Origin: an uncultured Chitinophagaceae bacterium
GTDB lineage: Bacteria > Bacteroidota > Bacteroidia > Chitinophagales > Chitinophagaceae
Direction of reading: 5' to 3'
DNA length: 47,930 nucleotides
Assembly: GCA_938017685.1 (NCBI GenBank)
Contig: CALIIL010000164.1
Coordinates: 1-47,930, forward strand
This document shows positions 33,202 to 40,036 of this stretch, in pieces. Position 1 is the first letter of the stretch. The number at the start of each line of letters is the position of its first letter. A program made the position numbers and the translations under genes. The notes under the pieces are model-generated. The model saw only the letters and a program-made list of their open reading frames with translations, ran no database searches and was not told the origin of the DNA.

Positions 33202-33234
33202 AAGAGGAGCCGGTTGGGGCTTCTCTTTTTTTTT
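33202..33234. terminator. Two-way terminator hairpin downstream of the restriction-modification operon
   Basis: AAGAGGAGCC (33202-33211) pairs with GGCTTCTCTT (33218-33227), ten pairs with one G-U. A T-run follows on the plus strand and TTTTC follows on the minus strand. It lies beyond the homopolymer and can end the minus-strand operon. Confidence 0.65.
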
Positions 33235-33245
33235 GGGGGGGGGGG
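33226..33245. repeat. T9G11 homopolymer tract
   Basis: Nine T are followed directly by eleven G, ending ten bases before the stop codon region of the restriction endonuclease gene. Such tracts are slippage-prone in replication and sequencing. It does not lie inside the reading frame. Confidence 0.85.
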
Positions 33246-33254
33246 ATTACAGGT

Positions 33255-34433
33255 TTAGACCAAAGAATAACTCTCGCTAGGTGGAAACAACAGTTCTATT
33301 CCTTGTGGTTTAATTTTGAATATTGGCCCCTTTTCTTTAGCTCCACCAGTAGCAGTTCGCTTAATTAAATGATCCATTGTTATAATTCCTTGATCTATTA
33401 ATAAATCAAACTGTGAAGTAATTGGCCCTTTTGTGTGTTCAACAAACTTATATTGAAAATGTTCACGATTATCTATTTGCAAACTTTCAGCTTCTACCCA
33501 GAAGGTTTCTTTATGCTTCTCTCTTAATCTATTATGAAGTTTGTCTAAAGTCCAAACTACGAAATCTCCAATTTCTGGGTTATCAGAATTCTCTATCAAT
33601 TGCTTGACATCATTATCAATTCTTAGATTTAATCCCTGCGAGTTTCTCATGATAGCTGAAACTGTACAATACAATTTAAAATCATCTTCTCTTTCATATC
33701 CAAATGCATTCAAAATTTCAGAAGAACTTTTAAACTTGCTCAATTTCCAATCTGGCACTTGAGCGAATAGGTTTTTTCTATTTGTTTTGGTCTTTCTGAA
33801 GGATTTTAATTCTATTCCTTTATAGTCTGGCTTCTTAGATGAATTTATTTCAATACCAAGAGCAGTTTCTAATGTTCTGCCTACCGATGTATCAGCATCG
33901 ACCATAGAAGGGATAGGTCCCAATGATGCTACTTTTCTAAGCATTGCCAAAAGTTCAAAAGCAATTTCACTTTCAGTACTATTAATTGACTTTATTAAAT
34001 CCTGTAGCGGATTTTCAATCTTTGAATTTACTAATTCTTCAATATCTAATTTTGTCAAATTGAATACTTGAAACTTCTCATCAAAAAAAGCTATTGCAAC
34101 AATGTCATTGGGCTCTGCTACTTTTGTCAAACTATAAAACCAAATTCTTGGATCCCCACTCTTTGTAACAGGACGATATAAAGAAGCTTTTGACTTAATC
34201 GTTTTAAATCCGGTATGAATAATTGTAGGAATCAAGACTTTGTTACTCGGGCCTTGCTGCTGTAATTCATAGTCATGAATATTTTGAACTTTCAAAAAGC
34301 TACGAACCGAACCTGTAGCATCCATTATAGATTTATTTAATCCAGTAGTAGTTGGCTCAATCAAAGTGAGGGAAACCTGATTTTTTGTTAGGAGCTTTAA
34401 TTTGACCTGTTCAGCATCTGTAAGAGTTCTCAT
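33255..34433 (-). CDS. Type II restriction endonuclease, MvaI/BcnI family
   Basis: This is a 392-residue endonuclease of the PD-(D/E)xK fold. The probable active site is GRTLETALGIEINSSKKPDY followed by KGIELKSFRKTKTNRKNLF, in which D and the E-L-K triplet fit D...ExK and the layout fits the MvaI/BcnI family, whose known members cut CCWGG or CCSGG as monomers. The first 120 residues and the C-terminal HFQYKFVEHTKG segment also fit that family. The start codon overlaps the methyltransferase stop as ATGA, so the enzyme is made only after its protective partner. Target sequence cannot be read from the protein. Confidence 0.8.
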   Translation of the reverse strand: MRTLTDAEQVKLKLLTKNQVSLTLIEPTTTGLNKSIMDATGSVRSFLKVQNIHDYELQQQGPSNKVLIPTIIHTGFKTIKSKASLYRPVTKSGDPRIWFYSLTKVAEPNDIVAIAFFDEKFQVFNLTKLDIEELVNSKIENPLQDLIKSINSTESEIAFELLAMLRKVASLGPIPSMVDADTSVGRTLETALGIEINSSKKPDYKGIELKSFRKTKTNRKNLFAQVPDWKLSKFKSSSEILNAFGYEREDDFKLYCTVSAIMRNSQGLNLRIDNDVKQLIENSDNPEIGDFVVWTLDKLHNRLREKHKETFWVEAESLQIDNREHFQYKFVEHTKGPITSQFDLLIDQGIITMDHLIKRTATGGAKEKGPIFKIKPQGIELLFPPSESYSLV

Positions 34434-36640
34434 TTAATGTGTTTTAAAATTTCATTTGCTACTGCTCTTGCTAATAATGGTGGAACAGCGTTACCAACTA
34501 ACGTATATTGTGGCACTTCTGTTTTTCTATTATTTCCACCTGTTGAACGCTTTCCTTGGAAAACAAAAGAATCATCAAATGATTGCAATCTAGCCATCTC
34601 TCTAACAGTTAGAGCCCGAGGAGAATTGTAATGAATATAATCGTCTGGAATTGTCATTATAGTAGAGCTCTGTTCAGTTGGTTTCAAAACATTATAATTT
34701 CTTTTATTTGAAGACAGGCCTAATTTTTCTAATTCTGGTTGCGCCTTTTTATAATTACCTTTTTTAAGTATAAACTTTAATCTTTCAATTACTTTGTCGT
34801 TCTGATTACTTGTTTTGTGATTGTTGAGCATATCAAAAAACTTTTCTCCATTTTTAAGACCTTCATGATTCTTAACATAAAACGGTTTAGTATGTGACTT
34901 AAACCGCTCAATTAGTCTTCCTTTTTTTGACCATTCTGCAAATGACTTCCCACCCTTTGCCATTGGCTTCCCATCAATGCTTCTCTTTTTAATAAGTCGA
35001 GCCATTTTTTTTGCAGTTCCATTATATTGAGCTGAAATGTCTACTGGTTCATATCGATGTGCCTCCTCATTATTGCCGATAAAATCTAAATCGTGAAGCG
35101 CTTCAAAAATGGTAACTTTCTCTTCTTCTAAAACAGTCGATGGAATTTTAGATATATACTTTTGGTCTTTTCTGCAACCAATGAATAGTACTCTTTCTCG
35201 ATTTTGTGGCACACCATAATTAGAAGCATTAGCAACAAACGGTTTTTCAATTTTGTACAAACGAATATGCTCTAATATTGTATCAAGTTCTACTTTTTGA
35301 CTTGCATTGCAAAGTGTCTTTAATATTTCGATTGATTCATCAAACGAGGTTGTATAAATCTGTAATGCAGTTATAATATCGACGCAGTCCTTTACGTTAG
35401 CCTTCGGCACTTTCAAAGAACTAAAAGCTGTTTCAATTTTTGAAATGATACTTTCTGAACTGATTTCTGTTAGAAAATCTGTAAAAGAACTAACAAAATT
35501 ATCGCTATCTATATTGCAAAAATCTTTCTCTTTAATAATATCACGTTTTAATTTATCCCATTGTTTTGTCCGCGTTAAAAGATTAAAACCGTGTCGGATT
35601 GTATTAATATTTTGGTCGGTTTTACTTGTTCTATAATCAGCTATTTTAGGTGTTATTTTTCTAAACCTATTTTCTACAAATCCAATAAAATTTTCTCGTC
35701 CAGCATCTTTGTCCTTTTCTAATACTTTTTCTATTTCTACCCTTTTTATAATGCAGTCAAGAATAAACGAATTAGAATCTTTCTTTATTTTTTTAATAAA
35801 TGAATTCAGCTGTGGAATTTCTTTAATGTCAACTATAGAATTAATTTCCTTAATAATTAATTCTTTAATTTTTCCACCTTCCTTTGTCAAAATGCCTTTT
35901 ACATTCTCCATGACGAAATATTTAGGCTGTAGAACTTTTATGACTTCTAAATAATGAGAAAACAGATCGTCTTTTTTATCAAACTTCTTCCGCTTTCCTG
36001 CAAGACTAAAACTTTGGCAAGGTGGCCCTCCGCATATTACGTCTATTTTCTTGCCTGCTATCTTTTCTAAAAGATTATCTAAGAAATCTGGTTCCGTAAT
36101 ATCCTGTTTTAAGAATTCGGCTTTAAGCCCTAATTGATGATTGTAACGAACTAAGTGAGTTAATTCACAATTTTCATTTATATCATTGGCTACAACAAAG
36201 TCAAAAAATTTGTTATTATACTCCGCTTGTAAAAAGCCTTCACTAAATCCTCCAGCGCCTGCAAACAAATCAACAAATGTGAATGGGTTTCCATACAATG
36301 CAACTTGTTCTTTAAGAATACTAACATTGTTATTATCCTTATAGTTTTCAATATGGTCATTTAAAACTGTTTTTAATTCTTCAATTAAAAAGGTCTTTTT
36401 CTTAGCATTCTGATTTAACAATTCGTCAGCTCTTTCATAGAGAAAGTTTAAATAGTGATTTATAAAAATTGCAGCTTCATTATAACCAGAAACTCTTTGT
36501 GTTTTCTTATTGAACTGTTTCGGAAGAATCTTTTGTCCAGTTGACAGCTTTAATTGATTGCCATTACAATTAATTCTTAAGTGAATAGGAGCCTGCCCCT
36601 TTTTATTAGTTTTATCAAGATAGAAGTTTATTGTAGCCAT
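34430..36640 (-). CDS. DNA (cytosine-5) methyltransferase with N-terminal integrase arm-type domain
   Basis: This is a 736-residue protein. Residues 120-736 carry the m5C methyltransferase motifs: I (FTFVDLFAGAGGFSEGF), IV with the catalytic Cys208 (GGPPCQSFSLAG), VI (VMENVKGI), VIII (VPQNRERVLFIG, near 477), IX (SPRALTVREMARLQSF) and X (VGNAVPPLLARAVA). Residues 1-100 (MATINFYLDKTNKKGQAPIH, then STGQKILPKQF and EAAIFINHYLNFLYERADELL) resemble the arm-site DNA-binding domain of Bacteroidota tyrosine recombinases. About 190 extra residues lie between motifs VI and VIII. It is the first gene of the operon and its start is preceded by three TGTCCG repeats. Confidence 0.9.
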   Translation of the reverse strand: MATINFYLDKTNKKGQAPIHLRINCNGNQLKLSTGQKILPKQFNKKTQRVSGYNEAAIFINHYLNFLYERADELLNQNAKKKTFLIEELKTVLNDHIENYKDNNNVSILKEQVALYGNPFTFVDLFAGAGGFSEGFLQAEYNNKFFDFVVANDINENCELTHLVRYNHQLGLKAEFLKQDITEPDFLDNLLEKIAGKKIDVICGGPPCQSFSLAGKRKKFDKKDDLFSHYLEVIKVLQPKYFVMENVKGILTKEGGKIKELIIKEINSIVDIKEIPQLNSFIKKIKKDSNSFILDCIIKRVEIEKVLEKDKDAGRENFIGFVENRFRKITPKIADYRTSKTDQNINTIRHGFNLLTRTKQWDKLKRDIIKEKDFCNIDSDNFVSSFTDFLTEISSESIISKIETAFSSLKVPKANVKDCVDIITALQIYTTSFDESIEILKTLCNASQKVELDTILEHIRLYKIEKPFVANASNYGVPQNRERVLFIGCRKDQKYISKIPSTVLEEEKVTIFEALHDLDFIGNNEEAHRYEPVDISAQYNGTAKKMARLIKKRSIDGKPMAKGGKSFAEWSKKGRLIERFKSHTKPFYVKNHEGLKNGEKFFDMLNNHKTSNQNDKVIERLKFILKKGNYKKAQPELEKLGLSSNKRNYNVLKPTEQSSTIMTIPDDYIHYNSPRALTVREMARLQSFDDSFVFQGKRSTGGNNRKTEVPQYTLVGNAVPPLLARAVANEILKHIK

Positions 36641-36649
36641 ATTAAATTG

Positions 36650-36702
36650 CGGACACTTTTACGTACACGGACAATATTACGGACAAAATACTTTTGATCA
36701 AA
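36650..36702 (-). promoter_or_regulatory. Promoter of the restriction-modification operon with three TGTCCG repeats
   Basis: On the minus strand TTTG (36699-36702), 19 bases, then TAATATTG (36672-36679, one mismatch to TAnnTTTG). TGTCCG occurs at 36680-36685, 36668-36673 and 36650-36655, so one copy touches the -7 element, one overlaps it and the start site, and one lies in the leader. A TTTTGATCAAAA palindrome covers the -33 element (36692-36703). This arrangement is what an operator for autoregulation would look like. Confidence 0.55.
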
Positions 36703-36928
36703 AAATAGATATTCAATCTTATCCACTTGCATTAATTTGCACAGTGCCAAACAAAGGGAAAATGCTAAACATAGCCAGGATAGGAATGAAAATCCTCCCT
36801 CGCCTTAGCGTGGGAGATTGCAATGGATAGCCTGAGACCAAAGCTTAATTTAAGAGCCCAAAGCCTAATGCTCCAAAACATAAAAGCACCGAATAAATCG
36901 ATGCTTTTAAAATTTATATTGGTTGAAC
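36703..36928. other. Intergenic stretch with hairpins
   Basis: No gene is seen. It holds a CTCCCTCGC/GCGTGGGAG hairpin at 36795-36816, related on the other strand to the CCACGCTAAAGG repeats near 40.2-40.4 kb, and the terminator at 36882-36908. Confidence 0.6.
36882..36908 (-). terminator. Terminator downstream of the thiolase remnant
   Basis: On the minus strand AAAAGCATCGA and TCGGTGCTTTT pair over 11 positions (one G-U) around a five-base loop, with A- and T-runs outside. It lies 20 bases after the stop of the thiolase remnant and may be the original terminator of the thiolase gene. Confidence 0.75.
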
Positions 36929-37159
<231 letters not shown>

Positions 37160-37178
37160 TCACTATACTTAGCGGATA

Positions 37179-37224
37179 TTTTTTACCAAACGCGGCTCTT
37201 TTTTACCAAAATAGACTACTTTTG
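37179..37224 (+). promoter_or_regulatory. Fic gene promoter with two TTTTTTACCAAA repeats
   Basis: TACTTTTG at 37217-37224 matches TAnnTTTG, 35 bases before the ATG. No TTTG occurs at the usual -33 distance; instead TTTTTTACCAAA is present at 37179-37190 and 37199-37210, 20 bases apart, about two helical turns. A third partial copy, TTTACCAAA, lies at 37277-37285 inside the gene. A regulator binding these repeats is inferred. Confidence 0.5.
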
Positions 37225-37259
37225 AACGGCACAATTGCGGATTAAAATTACCCAATACT

Positions 37260-38801
37260 ATGCATAACGGATATAATTTACCAAAAGCGACTGTTTTTTA
37301 CGCGCGCACAGCTCCCGAAGAGGCAACGCTCGTTGGCTATGGAGCCATCATAGAAGCTTACAGCCTAAGTTGCCCACCACCCAACACCCTAGCACTTATC
37401 AGTAACAAGAAAAGACATTACAAAAAAAACGGTTGGGCGATATATGCCGCTAGTTATATGCCAGCCAATACGCTCTATGACCAATTGGTATTTGCTTTGA
37501 AATACGAAGGCCTCAATCTATTGATACTTAAAAAACTATTTGAACAACTGAGCGAAGATGAAGCGATCAAACTCATAACGACCAATACACCTAAAGGGCA
37601 ATATAACAGAAGGCTTTGGTTTTTATATGAATGGCTCTTGCAAAAGCAATTACCGATACCCAATGCGGATGTAAAAATTAGATATACCCATGCACTAGAT
37701 ATCAAACTACAATATGGCATTTCAGGCTTTAAATCTGCACGCCACCGAGTTATAAATAACTTACCCGGCACACTCAATTTTTGTGCGCTTATCCATAAGA
37801 CGCCAAAACTAGAAAAATACATTCAGCAAAATTTAGCAGAAAAAAACGAAACCTATTTAAGCGGTCTGAGCAAAACTATTCTGCAACGCGCATCGGCCTT
37901 TTTACTCCTAAAAGATTCAAAAGCCTCATTTACCATAGAAGGTGAAAATCCAAAAAGTAAAAGAACCGCCCGCTGGGGACAGGCAATAGGACAAGCTGGT
38001 AAAAAGGACTTAAGCGTATCCGAATTTTTACGGCTTCAACAAGTGGTAATAGAAAACCCACGTTTAATGCGAATGGGCTTTAGGCAAGAAGGTGGGTTTA
38101 TTGGCGAACGAGACCGAACAACTTTTGAGCCACTACCCGATCATATTTCAGCCAAACATGAGGACATCAACGAGCTGATGCAAGGACTCCTAGACACCCA
38201 AGATTTGCTGCTAGACCAAGAAATGGACGCCGTATTTGCAGCTACGATGATAGCTTTTGGATTTGTGTTTATCCATCCATTTGTAGATGGTAACGGTCGG
38301 GTACACCGCTACCTAATCCATCATGTTTTGGCAAAAAAACAATTTACTAAGCAAGGATTCATATTTCCCATATCGGCTTCTATACTAAACCATATAGATG
38401 ATTACCGACAAATCTTGGAGCAATACTCCTTGCCCTTACTTGACTTTATAGAATGGAAAAAGACAGACAAACATAATGTAGAGGTTACAAATCACACGAT
38501 AGACTATTACCGCTACTTTGATGCCACCGAACAAGCAACCTTCTTATACGAGCGTGTAGAGGATACCATACAACATATTATACCCGAAGAAGTTGAGTAT
38601 TTATCCTGCTATGATAGCTTCAAGGCTTTTGTGGATGACAACTTTGAAATTCCTGACAATACCATTGCACTACTAGTAAACTTTCTGGAACAAGGCAATG
38701 GATCTTTATCTAAAAGAAGCCGTGAAAAAGAATTTGCAGGTTTAAAGCCTAAAGAAATTAAACGCATTGAAAAAGAATATCAAGAAATTTTTAATAAATA
38801 A
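37260..38801 (+). CDS. Fic domain protein (class II, autoinhibited AMPylator-type)
   Basis: This is a 513-residue protein. The Fic active-site motif HPFVDGNGRVHR is canonical at residues 339-350. Upstream at 223-228, SFTIEG matches the inhibitory helix motif (S/T)xxxE(G/N), which blocks the ATP site in class II Fic enzymes. Residues about 45-95 form a winged-helix-like N-terminal domain (ALISNKKRHYKKNGWAIY, then LYDQLVFALKYEGLNLLILK), often linked with DNA or target binding. The C-terminus is helical and ends KEIKRIEKEYQEIF. Fic proteins transfer AMP or other groups to target proteins. The target is unknown. It sits between a thiolase remnant and the intact thiolase, and the opposing thiolase shares its terminator. 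Confidence 0.93.
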   Translation: MHNGYNLPKATVFYARTAPEEATLVGYGAIIEAYSLSCPPPNTLALISNKKRHYKKNGWAIYAASYMPANTLYDQLVFALKYEGLNLLILKKLFEQLSEDEAIKLITTNTPKGQYNRRLWFLYEWLLQKQLPIPNADVKIRYTHALDIKLQYGISGFKSARHRVINNLPGTLNFCALIHKTPKLEKYIQQNLAEKNETYLSGLSKTILQRASAFLLLKDSKASFTIEGENPKSKRTARWGQAIGQAGKKDLSVSEFLRLQQVVIENPRLMRMGFRQEGGFIGERDRTTFEPLPDHISAKHEDINELMQGLLDTQDLLLDQEMDAVFAATMIAFGFVFIHPFVDGNGRVHRYLIHHVLAKKQFTKQGFIFPISASILNHIDDYRQILEQYSLPLLDFIEWKKTDKHNVEVTNHTIDYYRYFDATEQATFLYERVEDTIQHIIPEEVEYLSCYDSFKAFVDDNFEIPDNTIALLVNFLEQGNGSLSKRSREKEFAGLKPKEIKRIEKEYQEIFNK

Positions 38802-38803
38802 TA

Positions 38804-38833
38804 GAAAATGGACAGCCGCAGCTGTCCATTTTC
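38804..38833. terminator. Two-way terminator between Fic and thiolase genes
   Basis: A 13-bp perfect stem (GAAAATGGACAGC with GCTGTCCATTTTC) with a CGCA loop lies three bases after the Fic stop and 25 bases past the thiolase stop. It serves the two convergent genes. Confidence 0.9.
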
Positions 38834-38857
38834 TTATTATAATAATATTATTTTAGT

Positions 38858-40036
38858 CTATACTTTCTCAACAACAATAGCCGAAGCACCACCACCGCCA
38901 TTACAGATGCCTATAGCTCCGTATTGTGCGTCGTTTTGGTGCAGTACATTGATTAAGGTAACCAAGATACGAGAACCAGAACTTCCTAAAGGATGGCCCA
39001 TACTTACCGCTCCGCCGTTTACATTCGTTTTTGTATTGTCTATTCCTAACTTCTGCATATTAGCAATACCTACTACAGAGAAAGCTTCGTTTAATTCGAA
39101 ATATGAAATATCATCCATTTTCAATCCTGCTTTTTCTACTGCTTTAGGCACAGCCAAACTTGGTGCTGTCGTAAACCACTCAGGTGCTTGCTCAGCATCG
39201 GCATAAGAAACAATTTTAGCGATTGGCTTTAAACCCAACTCCTCCATTTTTTCTTTACTCATTAATACTAAAGCACTGGCACCATCATTCATAGTACTGG
39301 CATTGGCAGCCGTTACACTTCCTTCTTTATCAAATACAGGACGTAGAGAAGGTATTTTTTCAAACTTTACATTAAAGGGCTCTTCATCTTTAGCCATAAT
39401 AATATCATCGCCTCTGCGCTGCGGTATGGTAACCGGTATCACTTCATTGTCAAACTTGCCTCCTTCAATAGCTGCTTGGCTACGCTTATAACTTTCAATC
39501 GCAAATTCATCTTGCGCTTCACGGCTAATATTACACTCCTTAGCACAAAGCTCTGCGGCATTACCCATTGGGTAGTTATTATATACATCCGTTAAGCCAT
39601 CATGAGCCAAACCATCGACCATTGAACGGTTGCCATACTTAGCACCCCATCGAATATCATTTGAATAGAAAGGCACATTACTCATGCTCTCCATACCACC
39701 AGCCACGATAATATCAGCATCGCCTAGTTTAATACTTTGCGCCGCTAACATCACGGCTTTACTTCCGCTGGCACATACTTTATTCACCGTTGTGGCAATG
39801 ACACTATCTGGCAGGCCTGCAAATTTTGAAGCTTGACGCGCAGGAGCTTGACCTAAGCCTGCTTGCAACACATTACCCATAATCACTTCTTGCACATCTT
39901 CGCCTTTTACGCCCGCTTTTTCTAGAGCACCTTTAATAGCAAATGATCCCAACTGCGTAGCCGAAAATCCTTTTAAACTCCCCCCAAAACTGCCCATTGG
40001 CGTGCGCACGGCACTTACTATATATACTTCTTTCAT
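38858..40036 (-). CDS. Acetyl-CoA C-acetyltransferase (thiolase)
   Basis: Thiolase condenses two acetyl-CoA to acetoacetyl-CoA or cleaves 3-ketoacyl-CoA. The 392-residue protein has the acylated Cys88 in NKVCASGSKA, the GGMESMSNVP and NAAELCAKECNI blocks, FELNEAFSVVG, the catalytic His in GHPLGSSG and the second Cys in ICNGGGG. All key residues are intact, the length is standard, and the start MKEVYIVSAVRTPMGSF is typical. Whether it acts in degradation or biosynthesis cannot be told. Its 3' end is repeated at 36929-37141 on the far side of the Fic gene. Confidence 0.96.
   Translation of the reverse strand: MKEVYIVSAVRTPMGSFGGSLKGFSATQLGSFAIKGALEKAGVKGEDVQEVIMGNVLQAGLGQAPARQASKFAGLPDSVIATTVNKVCASGSKAVMLAAQSIKLGDADIIVAGGMESMSNVPFYSNDIRWGAKYGNRSMVDGLAHDGLTDVYNNYPMGNAAELCAKECNISREAQDEFAIESYKRSQAAIEGGKFDNEVIPVTIPQRRGDDIIMAKDEEPFNVKFEKIPSLRPVFDKEGSVTAANASTMNDGASALVLMSKEKMEELGLKPIAKIVSYADAEQAPEWFTTAPSLAVPKAVEKAGLKMDDISYFELNEAFSVVGIANMQKLGIDNTKTNVNGGAVSMGHPLGSSGSRILVTLINVLHQNDAQYGAIGICNGGGGASAIVVEKV

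Follow-up and report, generated by a model that had tools for sequence, protein, structure and literature searches.

How does a cytosine-5 (m5C) DNA methyltransferase come to carry the arm-binding domain of an integrase, and what might the enzyme do with it? The question is raised by a locus in contig CALIIL010000164.1 (assembly GCA_938017685.1) of an uncultured Chitinophagaceae bacterium, of which positions 1 to 47,930 form the stretch analysed here, called the window. Judged by its genes, the locus is a type II restriction-modification operon, methyltransferase then endonuclease, with the endonuclease start overlapping the methyltransferase stop by 4 bp. We propose, and consider quite probable, that the arm domain binds a direct-repeat array in front of the start codon and represses the methyltransferase-endonuclease operon, which would make the methyltransferase its own transcriptional repressor. 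The comparison covers 84 loci, namely the window, L007, L009, L010 and L031-L110, the last group being the best 80 of 232 relatives from a scan of 84,980 species; locus counts include close relatives. The features on which the proposal turns are as follows.

34430..36640, minus strand: m5C DNA methyltransferase with N-terminal arm domain, 736 residues, ATG start (open reading frame and Pfam; 84 full-length orthologous loci)
36329..36640, minus strand: arm-type DNA-binding domain, residues 1-104 (PF17293 and predicted fold)
36646..36685, minus strand: direct-repeat array TGTCCGTAATATTGTCCGTGTACGTAAAAGTGTCCGCAAT, candidate operator of the arm domain (84-locus upstream comparison)
33255..34433, minus strand: MvaI/BcnI-type restriction endonuclease, 392 residues (PF15515, 2e-74; adjoins the methyltransferase in most orthologous loci)

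The original prediction, made from the letters of the DNA, had read the N-terminus as an arm-type integrase domain and suggested a Pfam profile search and a structure prediction as checks. The profile search revealed a match to Arm-DNA-bind_5 (PF17293) at about residues 9-77 with an E-value of 2.2e-8 and 34.9 bits, above the curated cut-off of 22.6. Residues 1-118 alone gave E=7.9e-10, and the scores span 34.9-39.6 bits. The same family, and no other in that region, was matched at E<=0.001 in all 60 orthologs scanned. The AlphaFold2 model of residues 1-118, built with 60 orthologs, has a predicted local distance difference test score (pLDDT) of 84 and shows a three-stranded sheet (residues 3-8, 17-25 and 28-38) followed by a helix (55-77) and a second helix (86-103). 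The modelled fold would be arm-type because its order of strands and helix agrees with that of integrase arm-binding domains, which consist of three strands and one helix (PMC8138268). A helix-turn-helix at the N-terminus is not supported, as PF17293 alone was found there and the model opens with three strands. Residues 1-38, which form the sheet, are strongly conserved across the orthologs.

The nearest relatives point the same way. In a Foldseek search against viral models (BFVD), four integrases ranked top with template modeling (TM) scores up to 0.71, and among the BFVD matches listed these four alone reached a probability of 1.00. A profile of 60 arm domains run over 296 Bacteroidota genomes returned four methyltransferases and then tyrosine recombinases (26 loci inspected); outside the methyltransferase family every inspected match was a tyrosine recombinase, some of them truncated, and the recombinase N-termini start alike, for example MATINFYLWHQSTDGLRPIFLVYQDRGKKFRFYTGEKIDPRFW. 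The genome of the window itself holds a single further PF17293 open reading frame, of 410 residues. A PHROGs search gave no match. Profile, predicted fold and nearest relatives thus bear out the original reading and support an arm-type identity of the N-terminal domain.

The candidate operator lies directly in front of the gene and has the following parts.

36680..36685, minus strand: repeat 1, TGTCCG
36672..36679, minus strand: presumed -7 box TAATATTG, between repeats 1 and 2 (flavobacterial consensus)
36668..36673, minus strand: repeat 2, TGTCCG, 12 bp past repeat 1
36662..36667, minus strand: repeat 3, TGTACG (TGTCCG in one clade)
36650..36655, minus strand: repeat 4, TGTCCG, 12 bp past repeat 3
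36699..36702, minus strand: presumed -33 box TTTG, 19 bp before the -7 box (sequence)

In the window the array reads TGTCCGTAAATTTGTCCGTGTMCGTAAAAACGTCCGTAAA (36646-36685, minus strand), and its consensus across the 84 loci is TGTCCGTAAATT TGTCCG TGTMCGTAAAAA CGTCCGTAAA, with repeats at 0, 12, 18 and 30. It is built of two 18-bp modules, each with a hexamer pair spaced 12 bp. An array of about 40 bp stands just 5' of the ATG in 84 of 84 loci, at a distance of about 0-14 bp, and is present in full in 81; the reduced arrays of L009, L083 and L091 consist of the first repeat pair and the box only. Most array positions are identical in 81-84 of the 84 loci. In the 658 ortholog pairs whose proteins are 60-70% identical, identity is 85% within the array but 34% over the 60 bp upstream of it and 35% at four-fold silent sites, a level close to background in AT-rich DNA. 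Two other explanations of this conservation were rejected. For a leader peptide, the distance from array to ATG occurs in all three phases (13/15/56), so that the array is not coding, and the would-be TCC codons show no change at their silent positions, though other positions do vary. An RNA leader structure was dismissed as no fold was found (z=0.41).

Across 395 Bacteroidota genomes, array matches with at most one mismatch occur in four, each time directly before an ortholog. These are four of the five genomes carrying the gene, and the fifth (G016, that of L009) has the reduced array. Within the window's genome, the core pair is matched perfectly at the window site alone. The array was rejected as a general genomic or phage motif: matches with three mismatches in the 395 genomes were no commoner than those of a reversed control pattern, and 18 core matches in viral contigs came without the full array (among the matches listed). 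None of the listed three-mismatch or viral-contig matches was followed just after by the start of an arm-domain gene.

We infer both the arm domain as binder of the array and repression as the effect, and this gives room to the idea that a different host or trans-acting regulator binds the array, the arm domain having another role or being a relic. We regard this idea as improbable. With no copy of the array at other places in the genomes, a host regulator would have this operon as its sole target. No gene for a regulator was noticed to recur beside the operon in the orthologous loci, and the strong conservation of arm residues 1-38 is unlike a relic.

Flavobacterial sigma-A promoters have the -7 box TAnnTTTG at -12 to -5 (PMC9723704). 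Between repeats 1 and 2 this sequence is found in 76 of the 84 loci, and on this consensus we presume a promoter here. As the box falls between repeats 1 and 2, the predicted transcription start would be the first base of repeat 3, and a protein on the array would cover both the -7 box and the predicted start site. The location of repeats 3 and 4 within the predicted 5' leader might indicate that binding of the array by the arm domain brings activation, or a mere tuning of translation, instead of repression. To this we give hardly any weight, for a protein lying over the -7 box and start site is poorly placed to activate, and the three reduced arrays retain precisely the pair around the -7 box.

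We propose the following cycle for repression by the arm domain. The domain would have been captured from a Bacteroidota tyrosine recombinase and joined to the methyltransferase via a flexible linker, and it would bind the tandem TGTCCG repeats around the -7 box and the predicted start site of its own promoter. Upon accumulation of the methyltransferase the array would be filled and RNA polymerase blocked, capping both enzymes since they share one operon. Upon entry into an unmethylated cell the array would be unoccupied, and the methyltransferase would be made first, at full rate, with the gene order giving it its head start.

The integrases with the nearest arm domains offer a further comparison. 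Exact direct repeats of at least 7 bp with a period of 10-13 were found within 250 bp upstream in 19 of 25 such integrases, compared with 4% of shuffles and 11% of 457 neighbouring genes. The repeat layouts before the nearest integrases include AGTGACCTATTTAGTGACCTATTT, GGTTACCATATAGGTTACCA, AAGTCTACCCATAAGTCTACCCATAA and TGTTGTACCTTTGTTGTACC; integrase L185 has its own upstream repeats TGTTGTACC, bracketing TACCTTTG, and the one in the window's genome has two copies of AATGTTTACCC spaced by 13 bp. The repeat units differ from integrase to integrase, as would be expected with one specificity per arm domain. The upstream repeats of 10-13 bp period at integrase loci L169-L192 and L214 could yield arm-site specificities across the family.

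The same likeness of layout, together with the patchy occurrence of the operon (5 of 395 genomes), would also fit an arm-type recombination site used by an integrase in trans to move the restriction-modification operon. This appears very unlikely: the array contains the -7 box and holds a fixed position relative to promoter and start codon, and no constant neighbouring integrase gene was noticed, although no systematic search for one was made. Our proposal of autorepression may extend to its origin, and we lean slightly towards a joint capture of the domain and its operator from an integrase. In that case a module for targeting recombination, made up of the arm domain and its tandem direct-repeat sites, would have become one for promoter repression that governs a mobile restriction-modification operon, along with the additional defence genes (DzbAB and NsnA-like) that several relatives have inserted after this promoter.

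That the array is read by the arm domain is likely on three grounds: this is the DNA-binding domain always encoded beside it; loci in which the endonuclease is replaced (L091, L095, L100 and L104) or cargo is present (L007, L045 and L086) keep array and methyltransferase together; and the nearest integrases show comparable repeat layouts. The original prediction had raised the arm domain as a different solution to autoregulation, a suggestion supported by the direct-repeat array, which is conserved on the promoter in all 84 loci. Several points weigh on the other side. The window's own -7 box (TAATATTG) deviates from the consensus, and the -33 element is weakly conserved in orthologs (G at that position in 58 of 84). 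Sequence and fold searches of the PDB with the arm domain gave no significant match, and the fold assignment draws on a profile and predicted models. In addition, the integrase sample is small, the operator type differs from that of M.Ecl18kI and M.SsoII, and another factor might be what reads the array.

The fusion itself appears old and stable inside one subfamily, from 58% identity upward, because the best 80 of 232 relatives all align from residue 1 to about 736. A search for other methyltransferases with the same fusion, also suggested at the outset, yielded the whole protein including the arm domain at 84 loci across Bacteroidota. Of 395 Bacteroidota genomes sampled, 5 have a full-length relative, and the remaining m5C matches in these genomes aligned over catalytic parts only. 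The N-terminus might have been a routine extension of ordinary m5C methyltransferases; it is constant in one Bacteroidota subfamily but not general among these enzymes, and it is still an arm domain. A phage or plasmid origin of the whole protein was rejected, as no record covers 80% of it and the top matches are to the catalytic domain only. One phage match reaching residue 4 (L030) turned out to be a different fusion, and viral contigs searched with the whole protein gave a single distant catalytic-domain match. In open papers we found no account of the fusion, or of PF17293 by name, InterPro and REBASE being outside that search. Within the same bounds, a self-regulating m5C methyltransferase with an arm domain and a direct-repeat operator seems new.

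Beyond the arm domain, the protein is organized as follows.

36284..36328, minus strand: low-confidence linker, residues 105-119 (pLDDT <50 over 105-118 / 102-120)
35837..36283, minus strand: methyltransferase part 1, residues 120-268 (PF00145 1-132 and ortholog alignment)
35249..35833, minus strand: all-helical insertion between motifs VI and VIII, residues 270-464 (model helices 272-459, pLDDT mostly 80-94)
34433..35248, minus strand: methyltransferase part 2, residues 465-736 (PF00145 114-324)

DNA_methylase (PF00145) was matched by Pfam in two pieces with E=2.5e-54, and NCBIfam concurs on a methyltransferase. Part 1 contains motifs I (DLFAGAGGFSEG), IV (GGPPCQSFS) and VI (ENVKG); part 2 contains motif VIII (QNRERVLFIG), the target-recognition region and motifs IX and X. 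The m5C motifs are present, as the original prediction had stated in calling the set complete, though the helical insertion of about 195 residues between motifs VI and VIII went unmentioned there. This insertion, within the catalytic domain, has a stretch conserved in the ortholog alignment (KTSKTD..INTIRHGFN). Pfam and NCBIfam scans found no recombinase family in the 736 residues, in agreement with the earlier statement that no recombinase catalytic domain follows the arm domain. As the catalytic domain is poorly modelled in the full-length AlphaFold2 prediction (mean pLDDT 63), we claim no geometry between the domains.

Arm domains are sequence-specific DNA tethers and the linker appears flexible, and it had been suggested that the arm domain might target methylation. 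Held by it on particular DNA, for instance arm sites of mobile elements or the operon's own locus, the enzyme would then methylate targets close by in preference. We found no support for this and judge it very improbable. The sole conserved site that looks cognate is the single promoter array, in which no conserved methylation target is evident, and where a type II methyltransferase has a partner endonuclease, every site in the genome needs its protection.

Downstream of the methyltransferase the operon varies. An endonuclease was counted in 77 of the 84 loci, including three partial matches to GmrSD-type proteins (L086, L090 and L107); the census misses L007, whose endonuclease lies 2.7 kb downstream, and two contigs end too early. 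In L091, L095, L100 and L104 the endonuclease is absent and a convergent gene of about 310 residues takes its place. This gene is a candidate new restriction enzyme; the L104 copy matched no Pfam or PADLOC family. Between methyltransferase and endonuclease, two genes match PADLOC DzbA (3e-97, L007) and DzbB (9e-51, L045), and L076, L085, L098 and L109 have the same pair judging by position and opening residues. DzbAB is a second candidate defence system nested in the operon under the same promoter. In L086 (E=4.2e-22 / 6.3e-27), L090, L107 and also L057, the methyltransferase is followed by a GmrSD_N/NsnA-like gene and its small partner. In the first three, this gene is about 36-41% identical to the N-terminal ~130 residues of the endonuclease, which suggests that the endonuclease was swapped with its N-terminal domain retained.

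Right after the endonuclease gene of the window, at ~33224-33246, a T run precedes a long G run, by its looks a length-variable tract. On the other side, the thiolase gene (38858-40036, minus strand) has its 3' end duplicated, 187 nt at 85% (36904-37141 and 38833-39019), with an extra 43-nt partial copy; the copies lie across a Fic-family gene. We read this as an insertion or duplication scar beside the restriction-modification operon. Imperfect repeats (GGATATNNTTTACCAAA...) occupy 37162-37301, before and across the start of the Fic gene (37260).

Restriction-modification systems that move between cells must limit the levels of methyltransferase and endonuclease. M.EcoRII is also counted among the m5C methyltransferases that regulate themselves. 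In M.SsoII and its relatives an N-terminal helix-turn-helix on a flexible linker represses the enzyme's own promoter in competition with RNA polymerase (PMC3978073, PMC3874152, PMC3695355), and the Ecl18kI operator is the inverted repeat GGACAAATTGTCC (PMC3695355). Similar to M.SsoII and M.Ecl18kI, the protein described here is an m5C methyltransferase whose DNA-binding region stands apart at the N-terminus, joined by a flexible linker, has a conserved site in its own promoter (assigned by consensus) overlapping RNA polymerase contacts, and has no separate C protein seen in the operon. Unlike them, it carries an arm-type domain and tandem direct repeats. Where known self-regulating methyltransferases use a helix-turn-helix, a domain that steers integrases appears to do the same job, a hint that integrase arm domains can act as ordinary repressors, and the loci offer arm-site sequences, ready to use, for a domain family that has been little characterised. 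The endonuclease family is shared with MvaI/BcnI restriction-modification systems (PF15515); the other Bacteroidota loci of this type that were examined have different methyltransferases, with no arm domain detected in the flanks examined. Compared with the Bacteroidota tyrosine recombinases of PF17293, the protein has a methyltransferase in place of core-binding and catalytic recombinase domains, but it shares with them the N-terminal domain and probably the layout of the binding site, with direct repeats before the gene at a spacing of about 12 bp.
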